Below, in pieces: positions 25,183-44,894 of a DNA stretch of 64,000 nt. This DNA is from Pseudomonadota bacterium (GTDB lineage Bacteria > Pseudomonadota > Gammaproteobacteria > Xanthomonadales > SZUA-38). The position numbers and the translations under genes are program-made. The number at the start of each line of letters is the position of its first letter. Positions within the stretch are counted from its first letter, which is position 1. The stretch covers positions 1 to 64,000 of the forward strand of contig JBCCCR010000036.1 in NCBI GenBank assembly GCA_039033415.1. The letters run 5' to 3'. The notes under the pieces are model-generated. The model saw only the letters and a list, made by a program, of their open reading frames with translations, had not been told where the DNA came from and ran no database searches.

Positions 25183-28029
25183 TTACTCAAACCCGCTGCT
25201 GAATAGCGTGTCCACGGGTGAGACGACCTCCGTGGTCTCAGCTGCCGTGTTGTTGATCGACTGCGGATCTATCTCCGCAGCAGAGGCTGTGGCGATCATC
25301 GTCATTTGCGTATCGGTGTCGGGCGCCTGCACGTTGATGTCGACCGACCGGCTGTCGCCATTGGCGAGAATTCCAAGCTGGCAATCCACCCGGGTGCCGG
25401 CAGCGCTGCAGTCAAAACCGACGCTGGCTTCGCTGATAAACGTGCTGTCGAGGGGGAGGCTCGTCCCCAGCATGACGTCGCTGGCGTTACTCGGACCGTT
25501 GTTAGTCACGGTCACCGTGTAGGTGACCAGGCCATCTGGCTGCACAGGGTCTACGTTGTCCGTCAGTTCCACCGCGATATCCGCCACCGGATTGTTGCCG
25601 GTGACCAGCAGTGTGCCGGCTACCAGATTGTTATTGGTCACCGCATCGACGGTGTCTCCCTGAAAGGTGACGCTCACCGACTGGAGGTAAGGAAAGGTTG
25701 TATCGGCTGCGCCGTCAGCCTCCGCCCTGACTTGCATCGGCAGCAATCGATCTTGCGGCAGGATTACACCAAACAGCACGTTGCAGCTGATCTCGACCGC
25801 GTAATCGGCATACGGCGTCTGAGAGCAGCCGAAGTAGATGCTTGTATCGATCTCCACAGAGTTCGGGTCTACGCCTCGCATGATGTAGCGGTAGCCGGTG
25901 CCGATGGGCGCCGGCGACAGTCCATCATTTCTGAGCGTGATTTCCATTTCGACCGTCGTACCGCTGTCGACCGACTCCACGAGCGGGTCGCCGTCGGTGT
26001 TCGGCGCCAGCAGCGTCAGTTCGGGGACCACATCGAAGAAGGCGATGCTGTCACCCGGCGCTTCGACGGCACCCACATCGACCGGCCCGCCGTTATCGAT
26101 GCCCGGAGCATCCTGAGGTCGCTGTCGGAAGGTTCCATCGATGGTAGTGTCGCTGGTCAGCAGCTCGTAGCCGCAGGCGTCGATGCCGGCGGCCTCCCCA
26201 CTGGTCGCAAGCCCGAAGTCTCCGTTGTCCGGGTCGATCAGAGTCTGGCCGCGGTCGATCAGGTCCTCCACGTCCGTGACAAGGCTGAGACTAACCAGAT
26301 CATCGGGATCGTCCAAGACGCTGCATCGCACCAGTGAATTTTCGGTCGGGGACGATGCCATATAGTCTTGAAAATCGTTCGAAATCAGGGGCAACGTAAA
26401 GTTGCTGTCCAGCATCAGTGATCCATCGATCCGAAATCGGTAATCAGTAGAGTTTCGTCGAATAAAGCCGCTGAAGAAGCCGAAATCGTCACCTTTGTTT
26501 CCGGTGCTCGTGAATTCGGCCGCGGTGCTGTTGATGAGCGCAAACTGATGATCAGCTTTTGACATAGAGGCGTGGAAAACGCTGTTGGCGCCGTAACCAA
26601 AGTGGCGATAGAAGACGCTGTTGGTGATCAGAACGTCACTGTCGCTGGCCGAGATAGCGGCCCCGCGAGGGTCATAATCGTGGACGTCGAATCCTAATGG
26701 GCAGGTGTCCTGGTCATAGCTGGCTTCGTTGTCTCGAAAGAGGACCTTGTCGATACGCAGCGTGGAATCGATCGAATAGATCCCGCCACCGTGGCCTGGT
26801 TCATGCGTGCAAAATTGAAAGGCCACAACCTCGAATTCGACGTCGTAGTCACCGATGGATTGATTTTCGGCGATCAAGATACAGGCTTCCTGCTCAGCTG
26901 GATCCTGCCCGCAGGCCATACTGCTGCTGATGGCGCCGTTTAGCGTTAGGTGGCTGTCATCCCTGGCGTAGATCCCAGCGCCGCGGACGGCCCGATTGCC
27001 CGTCATCTTCATGCCTGCAATGGTGGCTTGAGAACGATTCAGAAAGATCCCGCCGCCTACGTGGCTGTTCTTGCCAGCCCCCGGATCTTTGTGGTCGCTG
27101 ATCTGGACTAGGGCGGCATTGTCTTCTACAAAAAGTGGCTGGCTGCGTCCGGTCGTCATCGTTGAATCGACGAGGTAGAGGCCGCCGCCACCGAGCAACG
27201 ACAGCGCATCAAACTCTTTCGCGGACGGGAAATCCGACAGCATGCGAAGCGCGCGGTTGTCGCGGATGACTCGTCGCTCATCGCTTTGATCCGGATCGTT
27301 GCGTGTCGTGAGGCTGCAGTTTTCCAGGTACATGCCGCCGCCAAGTCCACTCTCCGGATTTTCTACCGCCGGATTGCCGCTGAAATAGATGGCGTCGTTG
27401 CCGGAGATTTGGCCTGACTGAAATTCAATAGTTCCGGTATCGCAGGCGATACCCCCGCCGCGCGACGCGCGATTGCCGGAGATCTGAATCGACTTCAGCA
27501 CCAGCTCCTTGCCGCCGGCGCCGTTCATCGCAATCGCGCCGCCCCGGCTGACTGTGTCATCGAACCCGTTGTCCAGCAGCGATACGTTATCGAGTACCAG
27601 ACGGGACGTAACTGCCGTATTGCCGTTCACCATAAGGATGCCCGAACCGGTTGCCGCCCGGAGATTGCGCAGGACAAAGTTGTTTAGTCGAATGACCACG
27701 TTGTTATTGCCGACGCCGGTGGATATACCGCTCAAGCCCTGGGAAAGCTGATCGCCGTCGATTTCCGTGGTGCTTGTCGGCGAGCCGCCGCAGCTCGTAT
27801 AACCCCCGGTGACTTCCACCGAGCGATTGAGCAGAACGGGCTCGGTGACCAGGAGGTCCTGGTTCACCAGGATATGAAATTCGCCGTCGGCCGCGTTGAC
27901 CGGCACGGCCTGGTGCGCGTCGTTGATTGAGTTGAAGTCGCAGGAAGGCTCGTCACCCACCCGCAGCAGCGTTTGCGCCTGTAGCGAACTTGCTGACATC
28001 GCTAGAGTTAAGGGAATCAGAAATTTCAT
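25183..28029 (-). CDS. Large secreted beta-helix protein with DUF11 domain and FE-type tail
   Basis: The 948-aa protein has a signal peptide (MKFLIPLTLAMSASSLQA). A long parallel beta-helix with polymorphic-outer-membrane-protein-like turns follows (GGGIACDTG, GLGGGMYLENC, SHVGGGIFLNRS, GHGGGIYSIDST; about 100-560). A choice-of-anchor-type segment comes next (FRQRPQDAPGIDNGGPVDVGAVE, about 640-680), then DUF11-like beta-sandwich repeats (VTYTVTVTNNGPSNASDV). It ends DTLFSSGFE. GGAGA 7 nt upstream supports ATG 28029. It is probably an adhesin or surface-coat protein. It is divergent from a Ser/Thr kinase gene; the shared 250-nt region may be coregulated. Confidence 0.75.
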   Translation of the reverse strand: MKFLIPLTLAMSASSLQAQTLLRVGDEPSCDFNSINDAHQAVPVNAADGEFHILVNQDLLVTEPVLLNRSVEVTGGYTSCGGSPTSTTEIDGDQLSQGLSGISTGVGNNNVVIRLNNFVLRNLRAATGSGILMVNGNTAVTSRLVLDNVSLLDNGFDDTVSRGGAIAMNGAGGKELVLKSIQISGNRASRGGGIACDTGTIEFQSGQISGNDAIYFSGNPAVENPESGLGGGMYLENCSLTTRNDPDQSDERRVIRDNRALRMLSDFPSAKEFDALSLLGGGGLYLVDSTMTTGRSQPLFVEDNAALVQISDHKDPGAGKNSHVGGGIFLNRSQATIAGMKMTGNRAVRGAGIYARDDSHLTLNGAISSSMACGQDPAEQEACILIAENQSIGDYDVEFEVVAFQFCTHEPGHGGGIYSIDSTLRIDKVLFRDNEASYDQDTCPLGFDVHDYDPRGAAISASDSDVLITNSVFYRHFGYGANSVFHASMSKADHQFALINSTAAEFTSTGNKGDDFGFFSGFIRRNSTDYRFRIDGSLMLDSNFTLPLISNDFQDYMASSPTENSLVRCSVLDDPDDLVSLSLVTDVEDLIDRGQTLIDPDNGDFGLATSGEAAGIDACGYELLTSDTTIDGTFRQRPQDAPGIDNGGPVDVGAVEAPGDSIAFFDVVPELTLLAPNTDGDPLVESVDSGTTVEMEITLRNDGLSPAPIGTGYRYIMRGVDPNSVEIDTSIYFGCSQTPYADYAVEISCNVLFGVILPQDRLLPMQVRAEADGAADTTFPYLQSVSVTFQGDTVDAVTNNNLVAGTLLVTGNNPVADIAVELTDNVDPVQPDGLVTYTVTVTNNGPSNASDVMLGTSLPLDSTFISEASVGFDCSAAGTRVDCQLGILANGDSRSVDINVQAPDTDTQMTMIATASAAEIDPQSINNTAAETTEVVSPVDTLFSSGFE

Positions 28030-28276
28030 CGTGTTCTCCATCGTTTTTAAAGTCGTTGGCAGGGTTTTCTGCCCGTCATTGGCTAGAAACGAGGGGAAAT
28101 CCAATGTTCGCCAAATTTTTTTGATTCAGCGGTGGTTAACGGATTGGCACGAAGAGTTTTTCAAATAAATCAGTTGCTTGGAGAGCTGTTGCGGCTGAGC
28201 AAAGAGAGCCAGCCTCTGTGCTACGATCGAGCTGGAAGCGCATAAGCGCTCATGAGTCGGAGCTAAAACACCCCCG

Positions 28277-30898
28277 ATGTCTGGCGTCCTATTGCTTGAA
28301 ACCGGCGGCGGTCTGGAAGTGCTGACCCGTTTTGCGGACGACGACGCGCAGACGAGCGGCCGTCACCTCGAGCCAGGTACGCCGATCGGTCCATATGAGG
28401 TAGGCGAGCGCGTTGGGCACGGGGGCATGGGGTCGGTCTATCGGGCCGTACGTCGGCACGACGGCTTCGAACAGGAGGTGGCGCTCAAGATCATCCGATC
28501 TGGCAGCGTCCCTCGCGACGAGCTGCTTGCCAGGTTCAGGCATGAGCAAAGGATTCTGGCAAGCCTGAACGCTCTCGGCGTGAGCCGAATGCTGGACAGT
28601 GGAGTCAGCGAGAACGGCCATCCTTACCTGGTGATGGAATACATCGAGGGTATGCCGCTGCAGGAGTATTGTGAGCAGCGCGAGCTTTCGACTCGCGATC
28701 GACTTGAGCAGCTCATCCGCCTTTGCCGCATCATCGCGCACTGCCATCGGCGCGGGGTGATCCACGGCGACATCAAATCGAATAACGTGCTGATCGACAC
28801 CGATGGCGAAGTCCGGCTGCTCGATTTTGGTATCGCCGAAATGCTGGGCGACCGCGAGCATCCCGAGTCCGATGAGCCGCGTTCGGTTGCTATGACCCTG
28901 GCGGTGGCGAGTCCGGAGCAGGCACTGGGTGAACCCGTGACCACCGAGTCCGACGTTTACCAGCTTGGGCTGATGATTTACAGCTTGCTGTCCGGAACAA
29001 CACCCCACCGCGTTCAGCCGGAGTCGGAGCCAGACACCTGGGCAACCCAGATCACCACGCTGCCGCTCCCGTCAGTCGACGAACACGTGAGGTGGCTCAA
29101 GCGGGATCGGGTCTCTGACTTTGGCGACCTCAACGACATCGCTCGAACGGCGACCGCGAAGAATCCTGAGAGCCGTTACCGCAGCGCAGACCTCCTGGCC
29201 GACGATCTGCTCAGCTATCTCGATCATCGGCCAATTTCGACCCGTCAGCACGATCGCTGGTATCGCCTGGGTAAATTGATGAGGCGAAACCGCCTGGCGT
29301 CAGCGTTGGCGTTGCTTCTATCGGTCGCCTTGCCGACGGCGCTCGCTGCGTATATCCAGCAGCTCAACGCGAGCCGGGCCGCGGCGGAGACGGCGGCACT
29401 CAAGGCCAGCCGCACGCTCGACTTTATCTCCAGCCTGTTTGAAATCTCGGCGCCGGAAAACCGCCTTGGCGAACCGGTCACCGCCAAGCAGCTTCTCGAT
29501 CAGGGTGTACAGAAGCTGGAGCCGCTGCGGCAGTCGGATCCTCGGAGCTTTGCTGAACTTCGTCTCGAACTGGTCGGACGTTACCTGCGGCTCGCGGAGT
29601 ATGGTTCGGCCCTCGATCTTGCCGTAGACACGCTGGCGGTGATTCGCAGCGACGAGCGCTACGGCGATTTGCTGGTGTTCGCGCTGGACCAGCAGGCGAC
29701 CGCCCTGAGCGGTCTTGAGCGTCACGCTGAGGCGCTGACGCTCGCGCAGCAGGCTTGGGACCTTTTCACCGTGGCGCCCGAAAATCATCCGAGGGTCAAG
29801 GCTTATCTACTGCACTACTCGCTCGCCAATGCTAGCTTTTTTCTAGGTCGGCTGGAGCAGGCCGAAGAGGAATCGCTGGCGGCGTTGGGCAGCCTTGACA
29901 GCGAAGAGGCGATGGAGGCGCAGGGGAACGTCAAAATTCGGATTCATCAGATGCTCGGCAATGTCTCTCGAAAGATGGGTAACCCTCAGGGTGCTCTCGA
30001 ACAATTCCAGCTGGCCCACGATCGGGTGGTCGAGGAATACGGTTCTAACCATCCTGAATTTGTCCGCTCTCTGGGGAATCTGAGCCTGGCGAACTGGGGG
30101 CTTGGCAACTACGGCAAGGCGCTGGCGTTGAGCGAATCGGTCTATGACGCCAATCGGCGGGTCTACGGGGCGCGCAATAAGCACACGTCGACGGCATTGG
30201 GAAACCTGGCGCTAAACTACGTTGAGGTAGGGCGCTACGACGAAGCGATCGAAAAGCTCAGCGAGCAGCAAGGAATCGTCAGCGAGCTCGGCCTCGGTGC
30301 TCGCAGCGTCGGCAATAACTGGCACAACACGGGTTTTGCGCTTCAGTCGGCGGGACGCTATCGCGAAGCGCAGCAGTCCTATGAGCAGGCGCTGGACGCG
30401 ATTGTCGAGGCAAGCGGCGAGGACTCGCTGTGGGCGGCCAATATGCTTGGCAATCTGGGAGAGGTGGCCGTCGAGCTAGGCGAATTTCAGCAGGCTGAGG
30501 CCTATTTCGAACGGTCTCTCAACATCAAACAAAAGCGCTTGGACGACACCAGCAGCGGGATGGCGTGGCCCTACTACGGGATGGGTTTGCTGGACCTGCG
30601 TCGAGGCCGCCTAGATTCTGCAACCGCCCATCTTGGCGAAGCGCTGGATCGCCTGATCGCGACGCTGGGACAGGATCATCCGGAAACGGCGTTTCCGCTT
30701 ACGGCGCTGGGAATGCTCGCGATCGAAGCGGGAGACTACGCGGAGGCCCAGCGCCATCTGGAGAAGGCGCTGGCGCTACGATCTCACCTGCCATCGCAAG
30801 CCGGTCCGCGGCAGCAAACCGTGTCAGCGCTGGCTGAGGCGCTGGCGGCCCAGGGCAAAGAGGACGAGCTTGCGCGGCTAAGAGCACAGGTCGAGTAG
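28277..30898 (+). CDS. Transmembrane Ser/Thr protein kinase with TPR sensor region
   Basis: The 873-aa protein has a PknB/Hanks-type kinase domain (about 38-315): glycine loop GERVGHGGMGSVYRA, K71 in EVALKI, catalytic D165 in HGDIKSNN and D183 in LLDFGIAE. A TM helix follows (about 338-358), then a long region of TPRs (about 430-860; for example RYDEAIEKLSEQ, RYREAQQSYEQAL, DYAEAQRHLEKALAL). The catalytic loop reads HGD, not HRD, making it a non-RD kinase. It likely phosphorylates regulators such as the convergent ECF factor at 33709-34266, by analogy with ECF/kinase pairs; the partner is inferred. Confidence 0.88.
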   Translation: MSGVLLLETGGGLEVLTRFADDDAQTSGRHLEPGTPIGPYEVGERVGHGGMGSVYRAVRRHDGFEQEVALKIIRSGSVPRDELLARFRHEQRILASLNALGVSRMLDSGVSENGHPYLVMEYIEGMPLQEYCEQRELSTRDRLEQLIRLCRIIAHCHRRGVIHGDIKSNNVLIDTDGEVRLLDFGIAEMLGDREHPESDEPRSVAMTLAVASPEQALGEPVTTESDVYQLGLMIYSLLSGTTPHRVQPESEPDTWATQITTLPLPSVDEHVRWLKRDRVSDFGDLNDIARTATAKNPESRYRSADLLADDLLSYLDHRPISTRQHDRWYRLGKLMRRNRLASALALLLSVALPTALAAYIQQLNASRAAAETAALKASRTLDFISSLFEISAPENRLGEPVTAKQLLDQGVQKLEPLRQSDPRSFAELRLELVGRYLRLAEYGSALDLAVDTLAVIRSDERYGDLLVFALDQQATALSGLERHAEALTLAQQAWDLFTVAPENHPRVKAYLLHYSLANASFFLGRLEQAEEESLAALGSLDSEEAMEAQGNVKIRIHQMLGNVSRKMGNPQGALEQFQLAHDRVVEEYGSNHPEFVRSLGNLSLANWGLGNYGKALALSESVYDANRRVYGARNKHTSTALGNLALNYVEVGRYDEAIEKLSEQQGIVSELGLGARSVGNNWHNTGFALQSAGRYREAQQSYEQALDAIVEASGEDSLWAANMLGNLGEVAVELGEFQQAEAYFERSLNIKQKRLDDTSSGMAWPYYGMGLLDLRRGRLDSATAHLGEALDRLIATLGQDHPETAFPLTALGMLAIEAGDYAEAQRHLEKALALRSHLPSQAGPRQQTVSALAEALAAQGKEDELARLRAQVE

Positions 30899-31079
30899 AA
30901 GGCGACCAAGCTATACCGCTTTAAACCAGAACGCCTTCACCCTGCCCGTTTGTAAGTCGCTGTTTTAGAAGAGATTTAAATTGATTAGATTTCCGTTGGA
31001 TTTCCTTCAAGACCTTCATAGCTGAATTCCGCACGATCAAGCTCACGATTTCGATCGATCAGGCAAAGGAGTGCAGGGC

Positions 31080-33671
31080 GTGAATACCAGCGCAGTCGAT
31101 TTTCCCCGTTGGCGGTCAGTTGGCGACACCCTAAGGGTGTTCGCTCTTCTGGCAGGCCCCGCGCTGGCGATGGCCGGTACACCCCCGGAACCACCGCCCC
31201 CGGTTCCGGAGGTCTATGAACTGGTTCCTCTGGGCCCTGACTACCAGGGTCTGGCAATGAACGATGCCGGGGAGGTGCTGCTGACCGATGCGATCAACGT
31301 GGCTTTCGACGAACCCTTCGACGTGCAGCGCAGCATCTGGCGGGATGCGAATCGCGACGGCGTGATCGACAACGATGAGCTGGAGCCGGTGTGCCGCTGG
31401 CGGCGAACCTTCAGCACCCCCCAGAACGACTTTCCGCCGGATATGTTTCTTTCGGGGTGCAGCAACAGCGGCTTGGGAGGGCTACTGAATAATTTGGGTC
31501 AGGTGGTTCTGGTCGATTGGGAAGAGTCTCGAGTGGTGCTCTCCTGCACGCCCTTGCCCGGTCGAACCTGCGCGATGCGAACTGATCGCTTCGTGAAGGC
31601 CTTTTTCTGGAATCGTGGTTCCGTGACGTTGATTGACGACGTTGCCGACACGCAGGGCGGTGGCAATGGGGACATGGTCCAGAACACGCAAATCTCTGAC
31701 CTGAATGACCTCGGTACTTTTGTTGGTCAGACCCTTCGGCTTTCACCTTTTGGCTCCGAGCCGTTTCTGTGGGACGGCGCGCTCCAGCGACAGCCGGAGC
31801 TACGAAATATCTTTGGCGCCCTTCGGATCAACAACCTCGGACAGATCGCCGCGCAGACTGATCTCATTCAGCCAAGCGGCACCATCGTGCCCTTCGGCGG
31901 GGTGATCTACGACTTGAACAACCTCGGAGACCTGGTCCTGACCGACGATATGGACCGCCGGGGACTCAACGTATGGCTCGAAGACGGCACCATCTATGAC
32001 CTGACGCCGGCGCTGGTGGAGCGTGGTCAGGAGTTTGCGCCCAGCGCTTACGCGTTTAACGATCGGAGGCAGTTGGTATTCGTCACGCCAGACGAAAACC
32101 AGGACCGCAAGGTGATCAACCTGTTCCAGGACGACAACCAGAACGGCCAGGTTGATCCAGAAGAGATTTACGACCTGCGTCTGCGTTTGCCCGATCCTCT
32201 GCCGTTTGAGTTTGTTCGCCGTATCCGCAAGCTCAACAATCGGGGCCAGATGCTGCTCGATACCAGCACCGGTGATTACCTGATGCGGCCCCAGCAGCCC
32301 TGGCTGATGATGGTGGTGCTGGCGCTGGACGACACGCTGCAGTTCGACGCCGCCCGCCAGGCTGCGCGGGTGCAGGTGCTGCTCAACGATCTGGAGGCTG
32401 CCGCCATGAACCCGGCTGTGAAGGTGGTAGCGCTGGTGGACGGCCCGGAGCCAAACGACAGCTTCTACTACCTGATCCAGCCCGACGACAGCGATGAGCT
32501 GCTCGCCAACTACGAAGACGGCGTGAACCGCTTTCCGCTGGGGGAGGCGGATCTGGCGCAGGCCGGCACGCTCACCGAATTTGTGCGCTGGGCCCGCAAC
32601 CGGGCGCCGGCGGCGTCCGAATTGCTGGTGCTGGAGGGCGCCGGTGGGGTCGGCGGTCTGCTCGTGGACGACACCTCCGAGTTTGAGCCGCCGTTTATGT
32701 CAATGAGCCAGTTTCAGGCGGCCATGGCGGACATCGGCAGCGACGGCCCGGTGGATGCGCTTTATCTGAAAACGCCCTTTCAGGCCATGCTGGAGGTGGG
32801 TTTTTCTGCAGCGCCCGGCGCGCGCTATCTGATTGCCAGCCAGGAATACATCTGGCGCTTCCCGGCCATCTATCGCCGTATCGGTGAGCGGTTGACGGGC
32901 GTCGGCGCGACCGAGCGGCTGGAGGATACGCTGCTGGCGCTTACCCAGGCCATTTCCGCTGAGCGGTCCATTGTTCTCGGAGGAGAAACACTGATTCCGG
33001 TAACAACGTCACTGGTCAACCTCAACAAGCTGCAGCCGGCGCTGGACCTCGCCAACCTGACGGCGCTGGCGCTGAACACCAATTTGCCGCTCTATCGCCC
33101 GGCGCTGGAGGCGACGCTGGACATTGTTCAGCGCTTTGATACGTCCGGTGACTCGCAGCATACGAAAGAAGACGATCTGATTGATCTGTTTGTTTTTGTT
33201 GGATTGCTACGCGGGTTTGCGGAGCAATTGCTCGACATCGACCCCGCCACCGACCCGCTGCTCAGTAGCGACATTACCGAAGCTGAGTTCAGGGCAGGTA
33301 CCGAATATGTGGTCGGTGCGTTTCAATCTGAGGATGAAACGTCTGTCGGCACCGACGTGTCGTTTGCGCTAGGCGTATCGATTTTCTTCCCTAGCGATGC
33401 GAAGCGATTCTACGACGGCGCCAACTACAGCTTTGCCGCCGGCACCGTTTGGAACAGCGGCCCGGGCAACAAGGGTCTGGCGCCGAGCGGTCCTCCGCTG
33501 TACGAACCGCCCGCCTGGGGTCAGTTCATCGCGGACTACGTGGCGTTGACCAACCCTGATGCGCCAGGCGTGGACGATTTGCCCCGGCCCGACGTAGCGC
33601 AGCCGGTGCCGATCGACATCACGCCCAACCGGATTTTTGGCAATGGTTTTGAATCGGCTGCCGCGCCGTAG
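31080..33671 (+). CDS. Secreted protein with HAF-like repeats and a degenerate clostripain (C11)-like domain, FE-type tail
   Basis: The 863-aa protein has a signal peptide (LRVFALLAGPALAMAG). The N-terminal half (about 50-400) repeats short NxxG turns (LAMNDAGEVLLTD, LLNNLGQVVLV, LNDLGTFVGQT, INNLGQIAAQT, LNNRGQMLLD), as in HAF-type extracellular repeats. Residues about 405-620 follow the clostripain C11 layout, but the His position reads VLEGAGGVGG and the Cys position reads LYLKTPFQAMLEV, so both catalytic residues appear lost. The protein ends NRIFGNGFESAAAP. GTG 31080 is preferred over GTG 31071 because AAGGAG lies 8 nt before it. It follows the kinase gene on the same strand. Confidence 0.65.
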   Translation: MNTSAVDFPRWRSVGDTLRVFALLAGPALAMAGTPPEPPPPVPEVYELVPLGPDYQGLAMNDAGEVLLTDAINVAFDEPFDVQRSIWRDANRDGVIDNDELEPVCRWRRTFSTPQNDFPPDMFLSGCSNSGLGGLLNNLGQVVLVDWEESRVVLSCTPLPGRTCAMRTDRFVKAFFWNRGSVTLIDDVADTQGGGNGDMVQNTQISDLNDLGTFVGQTLRLSPFGSEPFLWDGALQRQPELRNIFGALRINNLGQIAAQTDLIQPSGTIVPFGGVIYDLNNLGDLVLTDDMDRRGLNVWLEDGTIYDLTPALVERGQEFAPSAYAFNDRRQLVFVTPDENQDRKVINLFQDDNQNGQVDPEEIYDLRLRLPDPLPFEFVRRIRKLNNRGQMLLDTSTGDYLMRPQQPWLMMVVLALDDTLQFDAARQAARVQVLLNDLEAAAMNPAVKVVALVDGPEPNDSFYYLIQPDDSDELLANYEDGVNRFPLGEADLAQAGTLTEFVRWARNRAPAASELLVLEGAGGVGGLLVDDTSEFEPPFMSMSQFQAAMADIGSDGPVDALYLKTPFQAMLEVGFSAAPGARYLIASQEYIWRFPAIYRRIGERLTGVGATERLEDTLLALTQAISAERSIVLGGETLIPVTTSLVNLNKLQPALDLANLTALALNTNLPLYRPALEATLDIVQRFDTSGDSQHTKEDDLIDLFVFVGLLRGFAEQLLDIDPATDPLLSSDITEAEFRAGTEYVVGAFQSEDETSVGTDVSFALGVSIFFPSDAKRFYDGANYSFAAGTVWNSGPGNKGLAPSGPPLYEPPAWGQFIADYVALTNPDAPGVDDLPRPDVAQPVPIDITPNRIFGNGFESAAAP

Positions 33672-33708
33672 GTCCCTCGCAGGCGCGCCTTACCAACGCA
33701 ACAGAAGT

Positions 33709-34266
33709 CTAAACGCGATCAGGCGCCGGCAAATCTTTTTGCAGCTGACTGCGAGCCTGCTGCCACTTTCGCTGCACCGTGCGATGGGTCATCGAGAGCG
33801 CTGACGCCACCTCGTTGTCCGACATGCCGGCAAAGTATTTGAGCTCAAAGACCCGGGCCAGATCCTCGTCACTCTGCTCTAGCCGCTGAATCGCTTTGTC
33901 GATCTGCAGCACGAGATGCAGCGGCTGGCTGTCGCCACTGACCTCCGCAAAATCCTGGGACGTTTCCGGTCGGGCGAGCTTGCGGCGTGCCTCATCAATG
34001 ACAATCTGGCGAGCCGCCATGGCGGCGGTTCGAAAGAAGTGTTCCCGATTTTTGAACTCAAAGTTTTTGTTCTTGCTGAGACGCAGATAGAGGATATTGA
34101 CCACCTCGGTGGTATCCATATTTCCACTGCGGCTCTGCCGCCGGGCGATGTTCTTCAGGTGCGAATAGACGAGCTTGTAGAGCGCCTGCGCGCTGTCCTG
34201 ATTGCCGGACTGGCCCCGGTTGATCAGGTGGGTGATCTGGTCGTACTCGTCCTGTGGTTCCGACAT
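33709..34266 (-). CDS. ECF-type sigma factor of the kinase-associated (ECF43/Sig-70 X6-like) kind
   Basis: The 185-aa protein has sigma region 2 (about 28-95: QALYKLVYSHLKNIARRQ, EVVNILYLRL, NREHFFRTAAMAARQIVIDEARR) and region 4 (about 125-175: LEQSDEDLARVFELKYFAGMSDNEVASALSMTHRTVQRKW). The position that is usually acidic in ECF factors reads MDTTEVVN, with T52/T53. In EcfP of Vibrio parahaemolyticus, phosphorylation of a Thr in this region by kinase PknT activates the sigma factor, so the same switch is plausible with a kinase encoded nearby. The gene is convergent with the kinase-linked secreted protein gene. Confidence 0.85.
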   Translation of the reverse strand: MSEPQDEYDQITHLINRGQSGNQDSAQALYKLVYSHLKNIARRQSRSGNMDTTEVVNILYLRLSKNKNFEFKNREHFFRTAAMAARQIVIDEARRKLARPETSQDFAEVSGDSQPLHLVLQIDKAIQRLEQSDEDLARVFELKYFAGMSDNEVASALSMTHRTVQRKWQQARSQLQKDLPAPDRV

Positions 34267-34353
34267 TTCAATGCGGCGGCAGTGCCTGCCAGGTTGGTTG
34301 CCTAAGCATGCAGAAACCCGGGCCGGGAGTCGAGTGCCGGCCGGCCGCTAGGG

Positions 34354-34565: not shown

Positions 34566-36173
34566 TCAGCTGTTGTTGGTGCTCGACGCGGAGCCGAGAA
34601 AATCCCGGATCGCCGAGACAAACGCCTGTGAGGAAGGCTCACGACCCAGCAGCAGGTGGTTGTCACTCTCAAGTCCCAGAAACTCTGCGTTGGGAATGGC
34701 GGTGGCGAGATCGATGCCGGTCTGCACGGGGATGCGCTGATCGCGTAGCGAATGAATTACCAGCGTTGGCACCCGAAGCTTGCTCAGGAGGTGTCGGACG
34801 TCGATGTCCCCGAAGGCGGACAAAAAGCGCACCGCATTTTCCGGCGACGCGGTGGCCCGCTGAAACTCGTTGAACCACTCCAACTCTTCCGGTGTCGCCG
34901 TAGGCATAAAGGTCGATGAAAAGATCTGCCGGTAGGCCGGGTTGTCCTGACCCCAGCCGGAGGCGGTTAACGTCATGATCGCCTCCCGCTCACGGATGGT
35001 CTCTTCGTTGGCGTCGATACGCCAACCTGCAGGATAGCCCCCGAATAAGATGAGCTTCGAGACCCGGTGCGGATGCTTGACCGCGTACGCGATAGAGACC
35101 GCTGCACCCTGAGAAATGCCCAGTAGTGCGAAGCGCTCCAGACCCGATGCGTCCACGACAGACTCAAGGTCGGTGACAAACGCATCGAAGGTCAGATCGT
35201 CCACGTCCCAGTCCGATAGCCCGTTGCCTCGTTCGTCATAACGAATCAATCGATAGTCCATGGCGAGCTGGCGAAACAGGGGACTCCAGATCGGGGCGTC
35301 CCAGTCCAGCTCGAGGTGGCTCAGCCAGTTCGCCGCCTTCACTAACGGGAGCCCCTGCCCGACCGTCGCGTAGGCGATCCGGACGTTGTCCTCAGCCATA
35401 CAGAACTGGATCTTTTGTCGATCCAGGAATGGCCCCGCGCTGGAGGGTTCCGGTGCAGACTCTGAGCTCGACTGACTGGACACGCCGGTAGGCGCGCTCC
35501 AGTCTACGCCGGCCTGACTGAAGCGCTGAGCGTAAACGTCGCTCTGCTCACGAGCTTCATCGGCGAGGCCAAACTGTTCTAGCCGCGTGATCAGATTGCT
35601 GGCGGCTCGGCGGCTGAACGGCTCCGCTTCACACCACGCCCGAGCCAGCGGCAGCAGTCGGCCCGGCGCCAGGCCTGGATGGGTGGCGAGCCGAGCCATA
35701 ACCCGTTCGCGCAAGCGCTCGATCTCCTGGCGTTGCGCCGTCAGCCAGTGGGCAAAGGTCGGCTGGTCGGACAGATCGCACCCGTCCAGCAGCGTCTCGG
35801 ACAGCTTCTCGGAGATCTGTTCCAGTCTGGCCAGCGCGGTATCTTCAGCGTCGATCTCTGCGGCGAGCTTTCGGCGGTCGATTTCGATCTGGGTACTGTC
35901 GATGCCGGCCCGTTCCCGGTCGGTGATGAGCCGATCCTCGTCGCCGGCTTTGACCAGAGGCCGAATCTTGCTGAGCGACCAGCGAAGCGCGCCGCGGGGA
36001 TCATCAGGTTTCCACCACAGGAGTTCGCACAAACTTTCCCGACGATGCGACCGACCGGTGAGAAGCAGATAGCCCAGCAGCGCGCGGGTGCGCTTTGAGG
36101 CGGGCAGCGGCACCGCCTCACCGTCGCGGTGAATTGTCAGTTCGCCGAGCGTCTTAACCACCAGCTGAGACAT
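34566..36173 (-). CDS. SARP/BTAD-type transcriptional regulator fused to an alpha/beta hydrolase
   Basis: The 535-aa protein joins two modules. Residues 1-95 form a winged-helix DNA-binding domain of OmpR/SARP type (VVKTLGELTIHRDGEAVPLPASKRTRALLGYLLLTG), and about 96-225 a helical BTAD-like region. After a Ser-rich linker (about 228-248), residues 255-530 form an alpha/beta hydrolase with triad candidates S354 (GISQG), D478 and H506. The hydrolase part could sense or process a small ester or acyl signal that controls DNA binding. Upstream DNA resembles the region upstream of the beta-helix gene at 25183. Regulon and ligand unknown. Confidence 0.8.
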   Translation of the reverse strand: MSQLVVKTLGELTIHRDGEAVPLPASKRTRALLGYLLLTGRSHRRESLCELLWWKPDDPRGALRWSLSKIRPLVKAGDEDRLITDRERAGIDSTQIEIDRRKLAAEIDAEDTALARLEQISEKLSETLLDGCDLSDQPTFAHWLTAQRQEIERLRERVMARLATHPGLAPGRLLPLARAWCEAEPFSRRAASNLITRLEQFGLADEAREQSDVYAQRFSQAGVDWSAPTGVSSQSSSESAPEPSSAGPFLDRQKIQFCMAEDNVRIAYATVGQGLPLVKAANWLSHLELDWDAPIWSPLFRQLAMDYRLIRYDERGNGLSDWDVDDLTFDAFVTDLESVVDASGLERFALLGISQGAAVSIAYAVKHPHRVSKLILFGGYPAGWRIDANEETIREREAIMTLTASGWGQDNPAYRQIFSSTFMPTATPEELEWFNEFQRATASPENAVRFLSAFGDIDVRHLLSKLRVPTLVIHSLRDQRIPVQTGIDLATAIPNAEFLGLESDNHLLLGREPSSQAFVSAIRDFLGSASSTNNS

Positions 36174-36333: not shown

Positions 36334-36756
36334 ATGCTTGAGCAGCTGCTGACCCCCCAGGTGCTGTGGATTCTGGCCGGCGCCTCGCTGGTCATGTTTG
36401 TGGCTTCGCTGATCGCCGTCCCCTGGTTTGTCGCGCGGATTCCCGCCGACTATTTTGCCGGTGAGGAACGGCCTCCTGCCGTGGCGTTTCGCAACCAGCC
36501 CGTGCTGCGGTTGCTGTTCAGGCTCCTGGCCAACGTGCTGGGGCTGATCCTGATCGCTGCCGGCATCGTGATGCTGGTACTGCCTGGGCAGGGCATTCTC
36601 ACGATCATTGCAGGCCTGCTGGCCATGAGCTTTCCCGGTAAATACCGCTTTGAGCAGTGGCTGGTAGGGCTGGGCCCCGTGCATCGTTCGATCAATGCGC
36701 TGCGGCGCTACCGCAACCAGCCGCCGTTGCAGCTACCCAATGAGCCGCTACCCTAG
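36334..36756 (+). CDS. PGPGW-family small membrane protein
   Basis: The 140-aa protein has TM helices near 10-33, 66-82 and 85-100. The core LGLILIAAGIVMLVLPGQGILTIIAGLLAMSFPGKYR resembles the putative transmembrane PGPGW family, with the PGPGW-type turn reading PGQGI. Function is unknown. Its TAG stop overlaps the stop of the convergent giant gene (CTAG at 36753-36756). Confidence 0.75.
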   Translation: MLEQLLTPQVLWILAGASLVMFVASLIAVPWFVARIPADYFAGEERPPAVAFRNQPVLRLLFRLLANVLGLILIAAGIVMLVLPGQGILTIIAGLLAMSFPGKYRFEQWLVGLGPVHRSINALRRYRNQPPLQLPNEPLP

Positions 36757-39700: not shown

Positions 39701-41816
39701 TGACCTTGTCCGCCTTCTCGTCAGCGCTGATGACGATGCGATCCAGGTTCCAGAACACGTTGACGTTCTCGAAGCGGTTCGGGTCATCCCACCAGGTTGG
39801 CCCCTGTTCGATGACCACTTCAAAGTCTTTGTAGTACAGCGCGCCGGTGTTTGTGGCGGTCTCGATTCGTCCGGGAACAATCGCTGACTGTGCGCCGTTG
39901 AGGTTCCAGGTGGCCAAGCCGCTGACCGCTATTCGGTAGGCGTCCTCCAAGGCACACTCAACGCCAGAGTCGGGCGTCATGACACCCACTACTTGGTTGC
40001 CGAGCTTGACCAACACGTCTTCTTCCAGTTCCCCGAAGAGTGCAGTCGACCAAGGTAGCACCAGAGTGGCGGTGCGGTCGTCCAAATCGGTGCCCCGCAG
40101 CTGGGGAAAAGCGATAACCTTGGAAAACCGAACGACGGCAGCGTCGTCCGGCTTGGCCAGACCCTCGATAAACGGTGTCGACTGCAGCTCCTGCTCCGCG
40201 CCAAGCTCGACCGTCGGCATGACCGAAATCAGTGTCTGGGTTGGGTCGAAGGGCACCTCAAAATCGGAGTCGAGGTTGCTGCGAAAAAAATAGGTGCCGT
40301 CAAACTCGCGCCGAAAGTCGTAGCGTAGCCCGCCATACAGGTTGGATCCCTCCTCCGTTCCAATGGGTATGCCGAATCCCAGCAGCAGGCCGTTCAGACG
40401 AATCAGAAACTCATTATCAAACGGGATCTTGGGTGGAATATATTCCACCTCACCGCCGGCCGTTGCGCGGATTTTGGTATTGGTGAAATTCAGGTAGTCG
40501 GTCTGCTGCGGGGAGAAGGCAAAGGAGAACTCGCCCTGGCTGTTGGTCACTCCGTTGTTGAGCGTCTTGGGGCAGCCGGTAGGCGTCAGCAGCTGAATAT
40601 TCGGATTGACCAGCTGATTGTTACCGTGGAGTTCGGTTGCTAACACGTTGACCGACGTGGCTTCTTGCTCACCTTTGCCCGCAAGGGGATTAACAAACTG
40701 CGTGCCGGGCTCGATGAGAGCGGTTTTTGCCGCGACGTTCCAGATGGCGCCCACGATGGGCTCGTTGTCGCTAAGGTCCGGATCGTTTTCGCTCTCGAAA
40801 GCCACCAGCTTGCCGGTGATGGTGATACCAAACTCGTCCTGGAGCCCGACGGCGGCGGAGGGGTGCACAATACGGCCGGACTGGCCGGTCTTCGGATTGG
40901 TGTACACAAAGCCCAGCTGGTCTTTGTCGCTGCGGTCCGCCGGAGGAAAGCCGTTCTGGATTGACGGCAGGGCGACGTCGACACGGAAGCCCACCGGCTC
41001 GCCACCCAGCGGCGCCTCCTGGCCTCCCAGGTCGAATGTCAGCGGCTGTGTGTTGACCGGGTACTGACCACCTTCATCGGCGATCCACACCACCGACCAG
41101 CTGTAGTCCGTGACCCGCGTTCCCTCCGGCACGCTCAGCGTGCCTTCGACATCGATGATGTCGTTTCGACTGAAGCTCGATGGCCACGTTAATGAACGAA
41201 CCGAAGGCGCTGCGAGCGTTTGCTCGCGCCGCAGCAAAGAATCGGAGCCGACGCCGACTACGCGTGTCCCGACTCGATTGATCAGCGTCGCAACAAGGGT
41301 TTCCTCGCGACCCTTGGGAATCACCACCGTGGTGGTGTACTCCGCTTCGCTGACGGCCCGCGAGCCGATGAGCGGGATGTCGTCCAAGTAGAACTCGATG
41401 AGGCCCGGTACCAGGTTGGAGAAGGTGACCGAAATTTCGGTGCCACCAAAACCCGACCGCTGGGCAAAGTCGATCACAGGCGGCTCGATCACCTCCAGTG
41501 CAGCGGTGGTCAGCAGCTCGTTTTCGGCATCGTCATACAGCTCAACTGTATAGGATCCCGGCGCTATCGAGTCAGGCAGGGGGCCGACAAATGCGCCTCG
41601 CCCTGCCGGATCGGTGGAGAAGCTGGTGATCAGTTGCAGCGAATCGCTGACGCCCGCCAGGCGCACAACGCGTTCCACCTGCGCGCCGTCGCCGCGCACG
41701 GAGCCGCTGAGGTCGCCGCCAACCGCCACTCGGTTGGGGAGCAGCTCGAACTGAAATTGTGCTATCGCCTGTGGGGCAGCAACGCACAGCAAAGCAAGGA
41801 GAGTCAGCTTTCGCAT
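36753..41816 (-). CDS. Giant secreted multi-domain protein with FE-type motif near the C-terminus
   Basis: The 1687-aa protein has a signal peptide (LTLLALLCVAAPQAIA). It is mostly beta-sandwich, Ig-like and carbohydrate-binding-like segments, with no catalytic motif I recognise. The C-terminal third contains a CARDB/DUF11-like repeat (LSAGETVDVEVTFDNLGEAF, about 1480-1590) and a fibronectin type III domain (GYRIYRREEGSTTIYSV, about 1600-1665). It ends DRVFRDSFEGTAG plus about 20 basic residues, so the motif is slightly internal. Several Cys pairs (CPLC, CSAGTC) suggest disulfides. It is divergent from the ECF/kinase pair at 42056-44894 and may be part of its regulon. Confidence 0.7.
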   Translation of the reverse strand: MRKLTLLALLCVAAPQAIAQFQFELLPNRVAVGGDLSGSVRGDGAQVERVVRLAGVSDSLQLITSFSTDPAGRGAFVGPLPDSIAPGSYTVELYDDAENELLTTAALEVIEPPVIDFAQRSGFGGTEISVTFSNLVPGLIEFYLDDIPLIGSRAVSEAEYTTTVVIPKGREETLVATLINRVGTRVVGVGSDSLLRREQTLAAPSVRSLTWPSSFSRNDIIDVEGTLSVPEGTRVTDYSWSVVWIADEGGQYPVNTQPLTFDLGGQEAPLGGEPVGFRVDVALPSIQNGFPPADRSDKDQLGFVYTNPKTGQSGRIVHPSAAVGLQDEFGITITGKLVAFESENDPDLSDNEPIVGAIWNVAAKTALIEPGTQFVNPLAGKGEQEATSVNVLATELHGNNQLVNPNIQLLTPTGCPKTLNNGVTNSQGEFSFAFSPQQTDYLNFTNTKIRATAGGEVEYIPPKIPFDNEFLIRLNGLLLGFGIPIGTEEGSNLYGGLRYDFRREFDGTYFFRSNLDSDFEVPFDPTQTLISVMPTVELGAEQELQSTPFIEGLAKPDDAAVVRFSKVIAFPQLRGTDLDDRTATLVLPWSTALFGELEEDVLVKLGNQVVGVMTPDSGVECALEDAYRIAVSGLATWNLNGAQSAIVPGRIETATNTGALYYKDFEVVIEQGPTWWDDPNRFENVNVFWNLDRIVISADEKADKVNDATAPNVPKDVGTVENDNMEMASMRQVINGGVVETIQRTGFSDQVVANQPTGPGKLVETFLTGSAASFASRDLTPAEHQAFRKTLVDDDCNPGEGVVQCLKRRFNQGIGFETTGSSGPRTILDTGKIPLFRYAWGVPPIAALTIGADVWFRATLTYFAFLDQADLIIDVDGLVEPEVNGGLDLFVDLSALGGIVSASATASPALGISMPIVVTNTLLNELATRPCFNFVMDIVLEVALGPCPLCAELRFSERMIDYAEPNMCVVSGLNKSRKNIQRPIAGKLAIATDGFGTTASVYATDTGIKSFGLAAGTPGDLQDLDSGPGAMRPAAAFFDVGKGIAVWAQSSLDQAAFDALPDQVSDDPCHDDPSSSYADTLTGALSCDEPGPNRLPGTEFQHMVYAVLENGTWGPTLDLTLPSTGEGGVELAACMGGDPGCAPGGEILAVWEIDTAGDINEQSIKLRYARFDGATQSWSPVTTVDPGSTAKDVQAEPLYIAGDLLQGISAQPVITWIRNPLATRQNLNLQSRELWYEFIEETAGPQKATTLPAGVSSPSADDFSDGTFAVAFTQSSDTTFFGNRRSLWLARARNCSAGTCTWFGQALLDDGLQIYVENPTIQIDSFDRVSIVGRQVGIEGNPASNQSIGVVTGTGDLFQYRTTLADLSVGENSQLSNDGAVNWQPEATFDPISNNLIVVNAKGLSVEQLSQARLGKSIASDVVTGPVPGVMSKGLDSTVGVFINVQQRGPDGALTGAVPASRILSAGETVDVEVTFDNLGEAFNSEVTLAAYWDGPLGVGSSAGERLIRPDYGPAVQVLSVPIPRTFQRDEVHTLYVTLNPEMSPAETTLDNNTLTVEFGAMPVPFDPRPSTDQVGTIAFLDWSIEEDDRVVGYRIYRREEGSTTIYSVGFSPVNGFADANVRPNTVYQYRIASLSENMMESAPSDWVTLGVSAVQTDRVFRDSFEGTAGTQSAGRAKRALSQVSVH

Positions 41817-42055
41817 GAGGATCACTTTTCAATCGCAATACCCTCTGAATGCCAAAATGAGGAAAACCGCACAAATCCCCGTTACTGGTCGGGTGGTTTC
41901 AAGCAGGTGAGGTAGATCAGAAGGTTAGGCAAAAAGCTGAGGACTTTCGGTGGCTCGTGCTTGCGCCACCCTTCCCGCCAGAATGGCGCTGGTATGCCAA
42001 TCGGTCTAACCTACGCTGATGCAGGGATTGGTGGTATGCGGCGGATGAGCAGGCG

Positions 42056-42627
42056 ATGACTGAGCCCGGAAAGCTGCTGGCCACCACTCAGCTGCTCGCA
42101 CGCTATCGAGACGGTGAGCAGGCGGCGGCTGACGACCTCTTTCGTTGCTATATGCCGAAGCTGCGCCGCTGGGCTCGGGGTCGACTGCCGGCCTACGGAC
42201 GAGACCTCTCGGAGACCGAAGATCTGGTGCAGGTGACTTTCTACCGCGCCCTGAATCGTCTGAAAGACTTCGATACGCAGCAGCCTGGTGGCTTTCTCGC
42301 CTATCTGCGAACCATCCTGCTCAATCTGGTGCGCGAGGAAATCCGGAACTCCGCGGCCGGCGCCCGGCCAAAGCGCCACTGGAGAATTCGCTGCCTTCGA
42401 ATCAGGCTGCCCCGCTGGAGCAGGTGATCGGTTCAGAGCAGCTGGCGGTTTATGAGCGCGCGCTAACCAAGCTACCCGATATGAAACGCAACGCCGTGAT
42501 CATGCGCCTGGAGTTCGGCATGACCTCCGAGGAGATTGCGACCGAGCTTGAGCGCCCGTCGGCAAACGCTGCGCGGATGACGGTATCCCGAGCTGTCGAT
42601 GAGCTCGCCACCCTGATGGCGCCATGA
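42056..42627 (+). pseudogene. ECF-family sigma factor gene, split by a frameshift
   Basis: Region 2 is read in one frame (42056 on: LLARYRDGEQAAADDLFRCY, ETEDLVQVTFYRALNRLKDF, LAYLRTILLNLVREEIRNS). Region 4 is read in another frame ending at 42627 (PLEQVIGSEQLAVYERAL, MKRNAVIMRLEFGMTSEEIA). The switch lies around 42345-42370 in a GC-rich run, equivalent to loss of one base; the first frame runs on to a stop at 42427. Region 4 ends with ATGA overlapping the kinase start. It could be a real mutation, a sequencing error or, less likely, programmed frameshifting. If intact it would be a roughly 190-aa sigma factor partnered with the kinase. Confidence 0.8.
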
Positions 42628-44894
42628 CCGACGACGAGAATAAACCCACCGATCTGGCCCAGCAGATTGCTGACCAGGAGTCGCCCGATTGGGATTCGCT
42701 GCCAGACGATCAGCCCAACGTGGATGCGCTCAAAATCCTGCACAGCATCTCAAGCGAGCTTCGTCGGTCTGAGACGCTGGAGCCTGAGAAGCCCAAGCTG
42801 TTCCAGTGGCGGCACCTGGAAGTGCGAGAGGAGATTGGCAGCGGCGCGTTCGGTCGCGTGTATCGCGCATGGGACGCCGTGCTCAACCGAGAGGTTGCGC
42901 TGAAGCTCGCCAAAGAACGTGAAGATTTTCGGGTGGATCCGAAGATGATCATCGCCGAGGCGCGGTCCATGGCGCGCGCCCGCCATCCCAACATCCTGGC
43001 GATCCATGGTGCGGATACCGAGGAACAACAGGTGGGCATCTGGACGGATCTGCTGACTGGCAGGACGCTGGATGAATACCTGGAGGAAAGCGGGTCGCTG
43101 TCGGTCGCCGAAGTTCTGAGGTTGGCCACGCCGTTGGCCGACGCACTGACGCTCATCCATCGACGAGCGATGGTGCACGGTGACGTCAAGCCATCCAACA
43201 TCATGATTCAAGCCGACGGCACGCCAATCCTGATGGATTTTGGCGCGGCCCGAGAACAGGGCCGCGGCTATTCTTCAGCACTGGGCTCGCCGCGGTTCAT
43301 GGCGCCGGAGCAATTTCATGGCGCCATGCCCGGCCCTGCCAGCGATCTATTTGCCTTCGGCGTGGTGCTGGCCCGCTGCCTTTCGGGGGCCTACCCCTGG
43401 CCGGCCGAGTCGCTCGAGGAGCTTGAGGCGGCCTATGACGCTGAGACGCCGCCGGATCTCAGCGGCGCGCCGCGGCGCTTTCGTCGACTGCTGAGTGAAC
43501 TCCTGGCCCGCACGCCGGAAGCCCGACCTTCCGCTGAACAGCTCTCGATACGTCTCGAGCACCTGCGCACGGCCCCGCAGCGTCGGCTGCGCCGGGCTGC
43601 GGTGGCTGGCGTTATCGGCGCGATGGGTTTGGGTCTGGTGACCTCGGTGATCGCGCTGAGGTCCGAACGGGCGGGGCGAGTCGAGGTTCAGGCCATTCGA
43701 GACGTGACCGTTGGGGCAATTCAGGCTGCGGACCCTAACATTGCGTCGGGCCCCACTGCCGTCAAACTGATCTTCGAGAAGCTTGATGAGTTCAGTGAGC
43801 CCTCGCTGACACCCTTCCCTGATGCCCTCGCGGAGATCCGCCTGCTGGCGGCTGACGGGCAGATGCGCTTTGGCGAGACGGAAGCTGCGCTTGCGCTGTT
43901 TCAGAAGACGTTGGGTGATCTTGATCCAGACGACAAGCGCCACATCCGCCGCCGCGCAATCGCCTGGGCGGGAATCGCGGATATCTATGCGGACACCGGC
44001 GAGCTGGACAAGGCCGAACACGCTGTTCGGAAGACTTTAGAGATATCGGAAAAGCGATTCGATCAACATGCTGAGGGTCAGAAGCTGGTGGCCCGAAACA
44101 AGCTGATCGGCTTACTGAACCTCCAGGGCCGAGCGGTGGAACAGCGCGACGAGCAGCTCAAGCTGCTGGCCGACCGCGAGGCGCTCTATGGCGTCGACGC
44201 CGTAGAAACGGCGGTAGATCACCACAATCTAGCGACGGCTTATCGGTCGCTCGGAGAGTTTGAGCAGGCGCTCGCCAGCGAACAGCGCACGCTGGAAATC
44301 CTGAATACTCACGAATTCGGCCGATCGCTCCGCGCTGTATTTGTGCATCACGCCCTGGCGTCCATCCACATAGACCTGGCGCAGCTGGATGATGCGCAGC
44401 AGATGATCAATGCTGCGGAGGAGATTGGAGAAGCGTCGCTGCCACCTGATCATTCGATGGTCTCTGAGCTACGGGTCCAGCAGGCGAGGCTGTGGCGCAA
44501 ACAGGGGGAGCTGGATCGTGCGGAGTCCGCGCTGCTTGCTTTGCTGGAGCTGAAAGCTGTCAACCTGAAATCTGCTCAAAAAGACGCTCGGCGGAATCTC
44601 GCCTACATCTATTTGACCCGAGAGCAGTGGTCTCAAGCTCAGTCGTTGTTCGCTGAGCTTCGCTCGGCCGTCAATGATCCCGAGAACTGGCGGATGAGCT
44701 ACCTCAGTGCAGCTGAGGCTTACGCCGGTGCACGGATCGACCTGACCGGTGTACCGGAGGCATTGGAAAAGACTCAGCGGGCGCAGGCGGAGCTGACGGC
44801 AAAAAATCTGACCCGCCTTGAGGCGTTCGAAAATCTGAGTGCCTGGAGCCTAGCGCTCGAAAACCCATCGCCAGGTGGATCTTCAGCGCCCTAG
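42624..44894 (+). CDS. Transmembrane Ser/Thr protein kinase with TPR region
   Basis: The 756-aa protein has an N-terminal extension (1-60), then a Hanks-type kinase domain (about 64-310): glycine loop EEIGSGAFGRVYRAWD, K94 in EVALKLA, D187 in HGDVKPSN and D205 in LMDFGAAR. A TM helix follows (about 325-345) and then a C-terminal TPR region (about 400-740; GETEAALALFQKTLG, GELDKAEHAVRKTLEI, GEFEQALASEQRTLEI). It is a non-RD kinase like the one at 28277-30898. It is translationally coupled to the upstream ECF gene, so the ECF factor is its likely substrate, by analogy with known ECF/kinase pairs. Confidence 0.88.
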   Translation: MTDDENKPTDLAQQIADQESPDWDSLPDDQPNVDALKILHSISSELRRSETLEPEKPKLFQWRHLEVREEIGSGAFGRVYRAWDAVLNREVALKLAKEREDFRVDPKMIIAEARSMARARHPNILAIHGADTEEQQVGIWTDLLTGRTLDEYLEESGSLSVAEVLRLATPLADALTLIHRRAMVHGDVKPSNIMIQADGTPILMDFGAAREQGRGYSSALGSPRFMAPEQFHGAMPGPASDLFAFGVVLARCLSGAYPWPAESLEELEAAYDAETPPDLSGAPRRFRRLLSELLARTPEARPSAEQLSIRLEHLRTAPQRRLRRAAVAGVIGAMGLGLVTSVIALRSERAGRVEVQAIRDVTVGAIQAADPNIASGPTAVKLIFEKLDEFSEPSLTPFPDALAEIRLLAADGQMRFGETEAALALFQKTLGDLDPDDKRHIRRRAIAWAGIADIYADTGELDKAEHAVRKTLEISEKRFDQHAEGQKLVARNKLIGLLNLQGRAVEQRDEQLKLLADREALYGVDAVETAVDHHNLATAYRSLGEFEQALASEQRTLEILNTHEFGRSLRAVFVHHALASIHIDLAQLDDAQQMINAAEEIGEASLPPDHSMVSELRVQQARLWRKQGELDRAESALLALLELKAVNLKSAQKDARRNLAYIYLTREQWSQAQSLFAELRSAVNDPENWRMSYLSAAEAYAGARIDLTGVPEALEKTQRAQAELTAKNLTRLEAFENLSAWSLALENPSPGGSSAP

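Follow-up and report, generated by a model that had tools for sequence, protein, structure and literature searches.

Why would a bacterium keep receptor-like Ser/Thr kinases and sigma factors next to genes for giant proteins that end in almost the same few residues? Two loci raise this question in a 64,000-nucleotide stretch of DNA (the window; positions 1-64000 of one contig) from a gammaproteobacterium of the order Lysobacterales with a 6.42 Mb genome in 62 contigs. Each locus encodes a kinase with tetratricopeptide repeats (TPRs), an extracytoplasmic function (ECF) sigma factor and at least one very large protein that carries, at or near its C terminus, a short motif closing in Phe-Glu, which we call the FE tag. 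An earlier reading of this DNA (the original prediction) proposed that the kinases and sigma factors form a signaling module that switches the large proteins on or off. We find that the genome contains about thirty sigma-kinase units and that most adjoin a large exported FE-tailed protein. Our favored interpretation, to which we assign a probability of about 0.5, is that switches resembling PknS/EcfK control neighboring surface proteins marked by a new C-terminal sorting tag.

The genome contains 53 matches to Ser/Thr kinases and 43 to the sigma factor model PF07638, 25 of them strong. We analyzed the stretches around all 51 kinases that lie outside the window, together with 24 control stretches that were hand-picked at round coordinates away from kinases and are thus not a random sample. 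Genes were called with a simple codon model that performs poorly at high GC content in other genomes. In a first count, an FE-tailed gene was the immediate neighbor of 21 of 30 kinases with a sigma gene no more than three genes away, compared to 3 of 23 kinases without a sigma gene and 9 of 315 control genes; in this count two sigma genes (L078 and L089) were uncalled, so their kinases were scored as lacking one. An FE neighbor is present at L089 and absent at L078. In a strict count, which accepts only contiguous units and uses hidden Markov models (HMMs) for kinases and for two sigma classes, 19 of 27 sigma-kinase units were flanked by an FE-tailed gene. Among the genes flanking these units, 23 of 51 were FE-tailed, compared to 9 of 396 control genes in the 24 stretches (P = 1.5e-17), and the proportion was 12 of 275 for genes at least four genes away in the same loci. 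Kinase-only units had FE-tailed genes at 5 of 49 flanking positions (P = 1e-4 relative to the sigma-kinase units). With two stricter definitions of the tail, 16 and 15 of the 27 units were still flanked.

The neighbors themselves are diverse. When the last 15 residues were removed, 25 flanking FE-tailed proteins fell into 17 clusters (BLAST, E 1e-5), the largest having 6, 3, and 2 members. The four possible orientations of kinase and neighbor occurred 8, 6, 6, and 6 times (26 pairs, as one protein was counted with two kinases). Since the clusters are unrelated and every orientation is used, block duplication of a ready-made module is ruled out as an explanation.

Two classes of sigma factor participate in these units. 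Class I is ECF43-type (the model TIGR02999, cut-off 126.15 bits, corresponds to the ECF43 group), and 18 of the 21 class I genes that contain the relevant region encode Thr at the position of T51 in EcfK; two more genes are truncated. Class II sigma factors carry a canonical acidic sigma2.2 motif, [DE]T[DEH]DLVQ, in 7 of 7 genes, and the kinases beside them have an HGD (non-RD) catalytic loop in 7 of 7 cases. The same loop is found in 35 of the 36 called kinases in proteobacterial class II loci and in 22 of 25 from other phyla. Six class II paralogues had no match to TIGR02999 at E 1e-12 and scored 63.1 to 88.4 bits with TIGR02984 (Sig-70_plancto1), below its cut-off of 183.75. Of the 30 kinases linked to a sigma gene, 28 have a predicted transmembrane helix after the kinase domain. 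In the published mechanism, the kinase provides ECF43 factors with the negative charge that their sigma2.2 region lacks, and EcfK has a second phosphorylation site in its linker; a review adds that the acidic motif is retained in other kinase-linked sigma groups, which may act in another way (PMC13147305, PMC8999054).

The FE tag is conserved at the protein level and lies near the C terminus. When 53 tails are lined up at the motif, they share the pattern [LIV]-F-x-[DSN]-[GS]-F-E; 14 of them stop right after it and 36 within three residues. A stricter form of the motif occurs in the last 30 residues of 52 of 1,053 complete proteins, compared to 15 of 11,866 internal 30-residue windows. The underlying DNA is not conserved: 51 tags are encoded by 50 distinct 21-mers, and both Phe and both Glu codons are used. 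Given this codon diversity, we reject the idea of an element that acts as DNA at the ends of genes. Lys is scarce in tagged proteins (0.9% versus 2.8%), and Asp, Asn, Gly, Ser, and Thr are abundant. A crude test found a signal-like N terminus in 27 of the 53, compared to 149 of 813 other genes, and the last 40 residues are hydrophobic in only one of the 53.

We compared 44 of the 53 tagged proteins to known families, leaving out three of at least 1,400 amino acids (aa) and dropping six by eye as likely chance matches. Against 22 NCBIfam models, at E 0.001 or better, they matched tandem-95 repeat (5), XAC2610 (5), choice-of-anchor Q (4), ScyF (3), and NxxGxxAF, ExeM, and MXAN_5453 (1 each). Tagged proteins also match FG-GAP and beta-helix domains, and the tag is common to folds as unrelated as FG-GAP, beta-helix, nuclease, and NHL. 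In the three giant proteins of the window loci, no NCBIfam match reached the tail. The FE tag has the distribution expected of a sorting tag, as it is present on many unrelated exported proteins and is rare away from the C terminus. ExeM has matches in 115 of 151 genomes of the order. Among 30 ExeM loci, the longest frame carried an FE tag in 7 (two from the same genus as our genome), a flagged hydrophobic tail in 3, and neither in 20; three of these frames were cut, a few may represent a frame other than that of ExeM, and one further tail (L335) looks similar to the hydrophobic ones by eye. The hydrophobic tails resemble the IPTL-CTERM type. A separate case is a 1,965-aa protein (L109:11550-17447) that has the sequence VFQDGFEG near its N terminus and adjoins a kinase whose other neighbor is FE-tailed. 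Searches of the open-licence literature, using tail strings as text as well as topics, found no description of the tag among the titles and abstracts listed, although it may have been published elsewhere.

To follow the tag across genomes, we used an exact DNA pattern encoding F-x-[DNSG]-[GS]-F-E followed by TAA or TGA. Of 41 genomes from the order, 25 had such FE-stop sites, 21 of them two or more, with a maximum of 36; the reversed control gave none. Among 271 other Gammaproteobacteria, 23 had one site and none had more; since the reversed control gave 18 single hits, these sites are at chance level. The numbers of ECF43 genes and FE-stop sites were correlated across the 41 genomes (Spearman 0.65). 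The correlation weakened to 0.52 (P = 0.085) over 12 family means, so relatedness explains part of it. Exact sites are nearly absent from three families (7, 9, and 10) that do have ECF43 genes; the variant DRFE can occur in tails of family 9, and DRFEP and DGFD occur at named Wenzhouxiangella and Marinicella loci. At class II loci from outside the proteobacteria (Acidobacteriota, Eisenbacteria, and others), ten proteins, all from Acidobacteriota or Thermoanaerobaculia records (among them loci L151, L165, L177, L192, L196, L197, L209, and L210), end in a longer form, approximately FxDGFESGDxSAW plus a few residues, which was not found internally among 206 genes. Five of these proteins flank a sigma-kinase unit (5 of 56 versus 4 of 122, P = 0.14). 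When nine were scanned, three matched choice-of-anchor Q above the cut-off and one matched choice-of-anchor B below it, and in none of the nine did the best NCBIfam stretch reach the tail.

The arrangement also recurs outside our genome. We could read 72 of 80 named class II loci. Of the proteobacterial loci with a complete neighbor, 18 of 36 had an FE neighbor, and 21 of 66 flanking genes were FE-tailed, compared to 13 of 220 distant genes (P = 2e-7). When two genomes from the same family as ours were set aside (11 loci), the figures were 11 of 25 loci and 11 of 44 flanking genes, compared to 7 of 145 distant genes (P = 3e-4). For ECF hits of class I (and of both classes in our own genome), 35 of 223 exact FE-stop sites in ten genomes were within 7 kb of a hit, where at most 13.1 were expected (P = 1e-7); without our own family there were 29 of 184, with 10.9 expected.

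With this background, the two window loci can be examined individually (Table 1). Open reading frames (ORFs) and domain matches confirmed the two kinase-TPR genes and all three FE-tailed giants that the original prediction had described, as well as the order kinase 1, 866-aa protein, convergent ECF gene. Comparing gene order in relatives, as had been proposed, revealed that both loci are kept in a sister species except for one extra called gene of 181 aa. The nearest named record found is the uncultured Lysobacterales bacterium IP29b_bin.149, with identities of 92% for kinase 2 and 93% for the 1690-aa protein.

Table 1. Kinase, sigma factor, and FE-tailed protein genes of the window
Feature	Position	Strand	Remarks
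FE-tailed exported protein, 952 aa	25183..28041	-	DUF11 E 1.4e-18, Chlam_PMP E 6.3e-05 (PMP-like repeats)
Ser/Thr kinase 1, 873 aa	28277..30898	+	kinase domain 40-309, TPR-rich C-terminal part
FE-tailed protein, 866 aa, ...NRIFGNGFESAAAP	31071..33671	+	weak clostripain (C11) similarity
ECF sigma factor, class I (ECF43-type)	33709..34266	-	TIGR02999 141.8 bits; PF07638 E 2.5e-30
Giant FE-tailed protein, 1690 aa	36753..41825	-	RDSFE 22 residues before stop
ECF sigma gene, class II (ETEDLVQ), frameshift-split	42056..42627	+	region 2 and region 4 in different frames
Ser/Thr kinase 2, 756 aa	42624..44894	+	kinase domain 66-307, HGD loop, predicted transmembrane helix, TPR solenoid
FE-tailed protein, 655 aa, ...NDLFRDSFETPN	2689..4656	-	no adjoining kinase
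FE-tailed protein, 1388 aa, ...VDPLFADGFESP	59155..63321	+	no adjoining kinase

Kinase 1 has an HGD catalytic loop and a single predicted transmembrane helix at residues 340-358. Upstream of it, the full ORF of the divergent gene (25183-28104) encodes 973 aa, with the likely start at 28041; the protein has an N terminus that looks signal-like by eye and ends in ...VDTLFSSGFE. The 866-aa protein on the other side, which ends in NGFESAAAP, is confined to its genus, the sister species being the only one of 25 relatives searched that has it. The sigma gene beyond it encodes the sigma2.2 motif DTTE, with Thr at the phospho-acceptor position and acidic residues left at both ends. This gene is convergent with kinase 1 and not coupled to it. 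The FE-tailed gene sitting between the two makes kinase 1 a kinase-only unit by the strict definition, and it was counted as such. Two side observations concern proteins of this region. The 866-aa protein has a Peptidase_C11 match at residues 442-606 (E 0.2) that is a lead only; the catalytic His-Gly presumably reads Ala-Gly in this match, and the protein is possibly a dead peptidase. Farther along, a gene at 34566-36173 on the minus strand encodes a 535-aa protein whose counterpart in the sister species is 93% identical. Its C-terminal half contains an alpha/beta hydrolase domain, and its N-terminal half resembles a transcriptional activator by eye.

The second locus departs from what had been predicted. 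Kinase 2 had been described as coupled to an ECF gene, and its gene does overlap the end of a sigma gene, at 42624, but the frame of that sigma gene is interrupted: 42056-42427 encodes region 2, and region 4 follows in a different frame that runs up to 42627. The sister species has an intact copy, and the two versions differ in length by 2 bases in the interdomain linker, so the split reflects either a recent break or an error of assembly. Should the frameshift be genuine, the kinase 2 module probably has no sigma factor of its own here. Of the two sigma factors, only the one near kinase 1 is ECF43-type (Table 1); the split gene scored 19.7 bits with TIGR02999 for its region 2 fragment, and its sigma2.2 motif is acidic. 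The proposed analogy to PknS/EcfK fits the architecture of the kinases and, in part, the first sigma factor; the second is neither ECF43 nor intact in this genome.

Like PknS-type receptor kinases, kinases 1 and 2 consist of a kinase domain, one transmembrane helix, and a TPR domain, an order that would place the kinase in the cytoplasm and the TPRs in the periplasm. An AlphaFold model of kinase 2, built from an alignment of 35 related kinases (mean predicted local distance difference test score 86.4, predicted template modeling score 0.54), contains a kinase fold, a long helix at residues 304-368 that includes the predicted transmembrane segment, and a TPR solenoid. Among the matches listed in a structure search against the PDB, all were to the kinase domain only. 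The 1690-aa protein divergent from kinase 2 belongs to a family (P0006) found at 14 loci in 5 of 26 genomes and FE-tailed at all 14. Eight of these loci adjoin a sigma-kinase pair, in various orientations, 7 with a class II and 1 with a class I sigma factor; counting each of the three pairs that also occur in the sister species a single time gives 6 of 11.

Elsewhere in the window, a gene at 49172-49717 (plus strand) encodes a sigma factor-like protein of 181 aa that locally matches the class II model best and has no kinase within two genes. It is overlapped by a gene at 49704-50255, which may encode its regulator.

How should the adjacency be read? On the interpretation we favor, each unit would combine an ECF sigma factor with a membrane-bound Ser/Thr receptor kinase whose TPR sensor lies in the periplasm. 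The kinase would activate the sigma factor paired with it, in the way that PknS activates EcfK of Xanthomonas citri, and the main local output would be at least one large exported protein encoded by an adjacent gene, on which the FE tag might act as a helix-free sorting or anchoring signal. About thirty such units would run in parallel, most pairing their sensor with a different surface protein. Several results weigh against this interpretation. Class II loci from other phyla had an FE neighbor in 6 of 34 cases, with no significant excess among flanking genes (6 of 56 versus 5 of 85). In 12 other genomes, ECF43 units (40 loci among the best-scoring hits, mostly from other families but with two from the own-family genome G003; the sigma gene was called in 30) had an FE neighbor in 7 of the 30 called cases, not significantly above distant genes. 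We regard the coupling outside our own family as genuinely weak, an effect aggravated by the crude gene caller at high GC content. In the ten-genome comparison, 188 of the 223 exact FE-stop sites were not within 7 kb of an ECF hit; taken singly, five genomes reached P = 0.05 and five did not, our own included (2 of 14, 0.94 expected). Sixteen of the 41 genomes of the order have no exact tag, some of them with ten or more ECF43 genes. As class II sigma factors keep their acidic sigma2.2 residues, the charge-supplying mechanism of ECF43 cannot apply to them unchanged, and they need a different activation step. About half of the tagged proteins lack a signal-like N terminus by our crude test, and we identified no processing enzyme or receptor for the tag. 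Lastly, a search of the upstream regions belonging to 24 class I sigma genes, 10 genes labeled class II by best HMM (six intact genes, two split halves, the sigma-like gene at 49172, and L119), and 66 FE genes, compared to 860 control upstream regions, revealed no convincing two-box promoter motif shared by the sigma or FE genes, allowing for the number of motifs tried.

The lack of a shared promoter motif upstream of the FE genes would also fit a role of the tagged neighbor as input rather than output, with the TPR domain monitoring its export or its capture of a surface ligand and the sigma factor acting elsewhere. A TPR solenoid predicted beyond the membrane helix suits this idea, and mostly unrelated neighbors suit sensors as well as outputs. 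Free orientation, however, equally suits co-regulated neighbors, and local output has a precedent: EcfK is encoded in the region of the type VI secretion system that it induces (PMC8999054). We consider an input role unlikely. The tail could also be a structural end piece, such as the terminal beta-strand of Ig-like, propeller, or helix folds, which occur frequently in large exported proteins, instead of a sorting signal. The protein with the motif near its N terminus is in keeping with such a role, as is the Acidobacteriota long form, which could be a longer structural segment; yet the motif is rare inside proteins, is shared by unrelated folds, and is missing from many ExeM relatives, a few of which have a hydrophobic tail in its place, which makes a purely structural function doubtful. 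A last alternative is that the adjacency is a by-product, with kinase-sigma pairs and large exported proteins collecting in variable regions without any functional link. Although the weak coupling of ECF43 units sampled elsewhere and some excess beside kinase-only units point in this direction, the excess beside sigma-kinase units is found at the immediate flank and drops with distance, and P0006 proteins adjoin sigma-kinase pairs in different species, in different orientations, and with either class of sigma factor. We consider an accidental association very unlikely.

TPR domains can read C termini, as in the recognition of EEVD (HOP/Hsp90) and SKL (PEX5). By analogy, the periplasmic TPR solenoid of a kinase might bind the free C-terminal -F-x-D-G-F-E of its tagged neighbor in the periplasm, resulting in cargo-sensing feedback. 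We regard this reading as a long shot. If it were true, the tagged cargo would inform the sigma factor about its export or its state at the surface, and the genome would contain some thirty parallel copies of a cargo-sensing circuit built on a new, helix-free tag. More generally, the genome lends itself to the question of how phospho-switches that run in parallel are kept insulated from one another, and the presence of two sigma classes in the same type of unit makes kinase control of acidic-motif sigma factors directly testable. The FE tag, for its part, marks large exported proteins across much of the order and points to a putative sorting machine.

Like PEP-CTERM, GlyGly-CTERM, and MYXO-CTERM, the FE tag is a short C-terminal motif found on many unrelated exported proteins, and it occurs on families that have PEP-CTERM or MYXO-CTERM tails in other organisms, including some whose models take their names from such tails (ScyF, MXAN_5453, and choice-of-anchor Q). 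Those tags are tripartite, consisting of a motif, a transmembrane helix, and basic residues, whereas the FE tag has no transmembrane helix; therefore, the known intramembrane sorting proteases would not fit. The nearest model is MYXO-CTERM, a tag that decides between surface display and release (PMC11980579) but whose membrane helix has no counterpart in the FE tag. For class II sigma factors, Sig-70_plancto1 is the best or second-best model, and we view them as related to that group but not members of it. The closest counterparts of the units as a whole are PknS-EcfK of Xanthomonas citri and PknT-EcfP of Vibrio parahaemolyticus, ECF43 systems in which a transmembrane Hanks-type kinase is encoded beside an ECF sigma factor; PknS is described as having C-terminal periplasmic TPRs (PMC13147305, PMC8999054). 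Most class I sigma factors in our genome share the phospho-acceptor Thr with EcfK. In contrast to these systems, the class I sigma gene in the window is convergent with the nearest kinase and one gene away from it, and a second sigma class with canonical acidic residues is paired with kinases that have an HGD loop. Moreover, while the kinase-activated sigma factors in the literature we consulted are single examples, here some thirty units are present in one genome, most of them beside a tagged exported protein.

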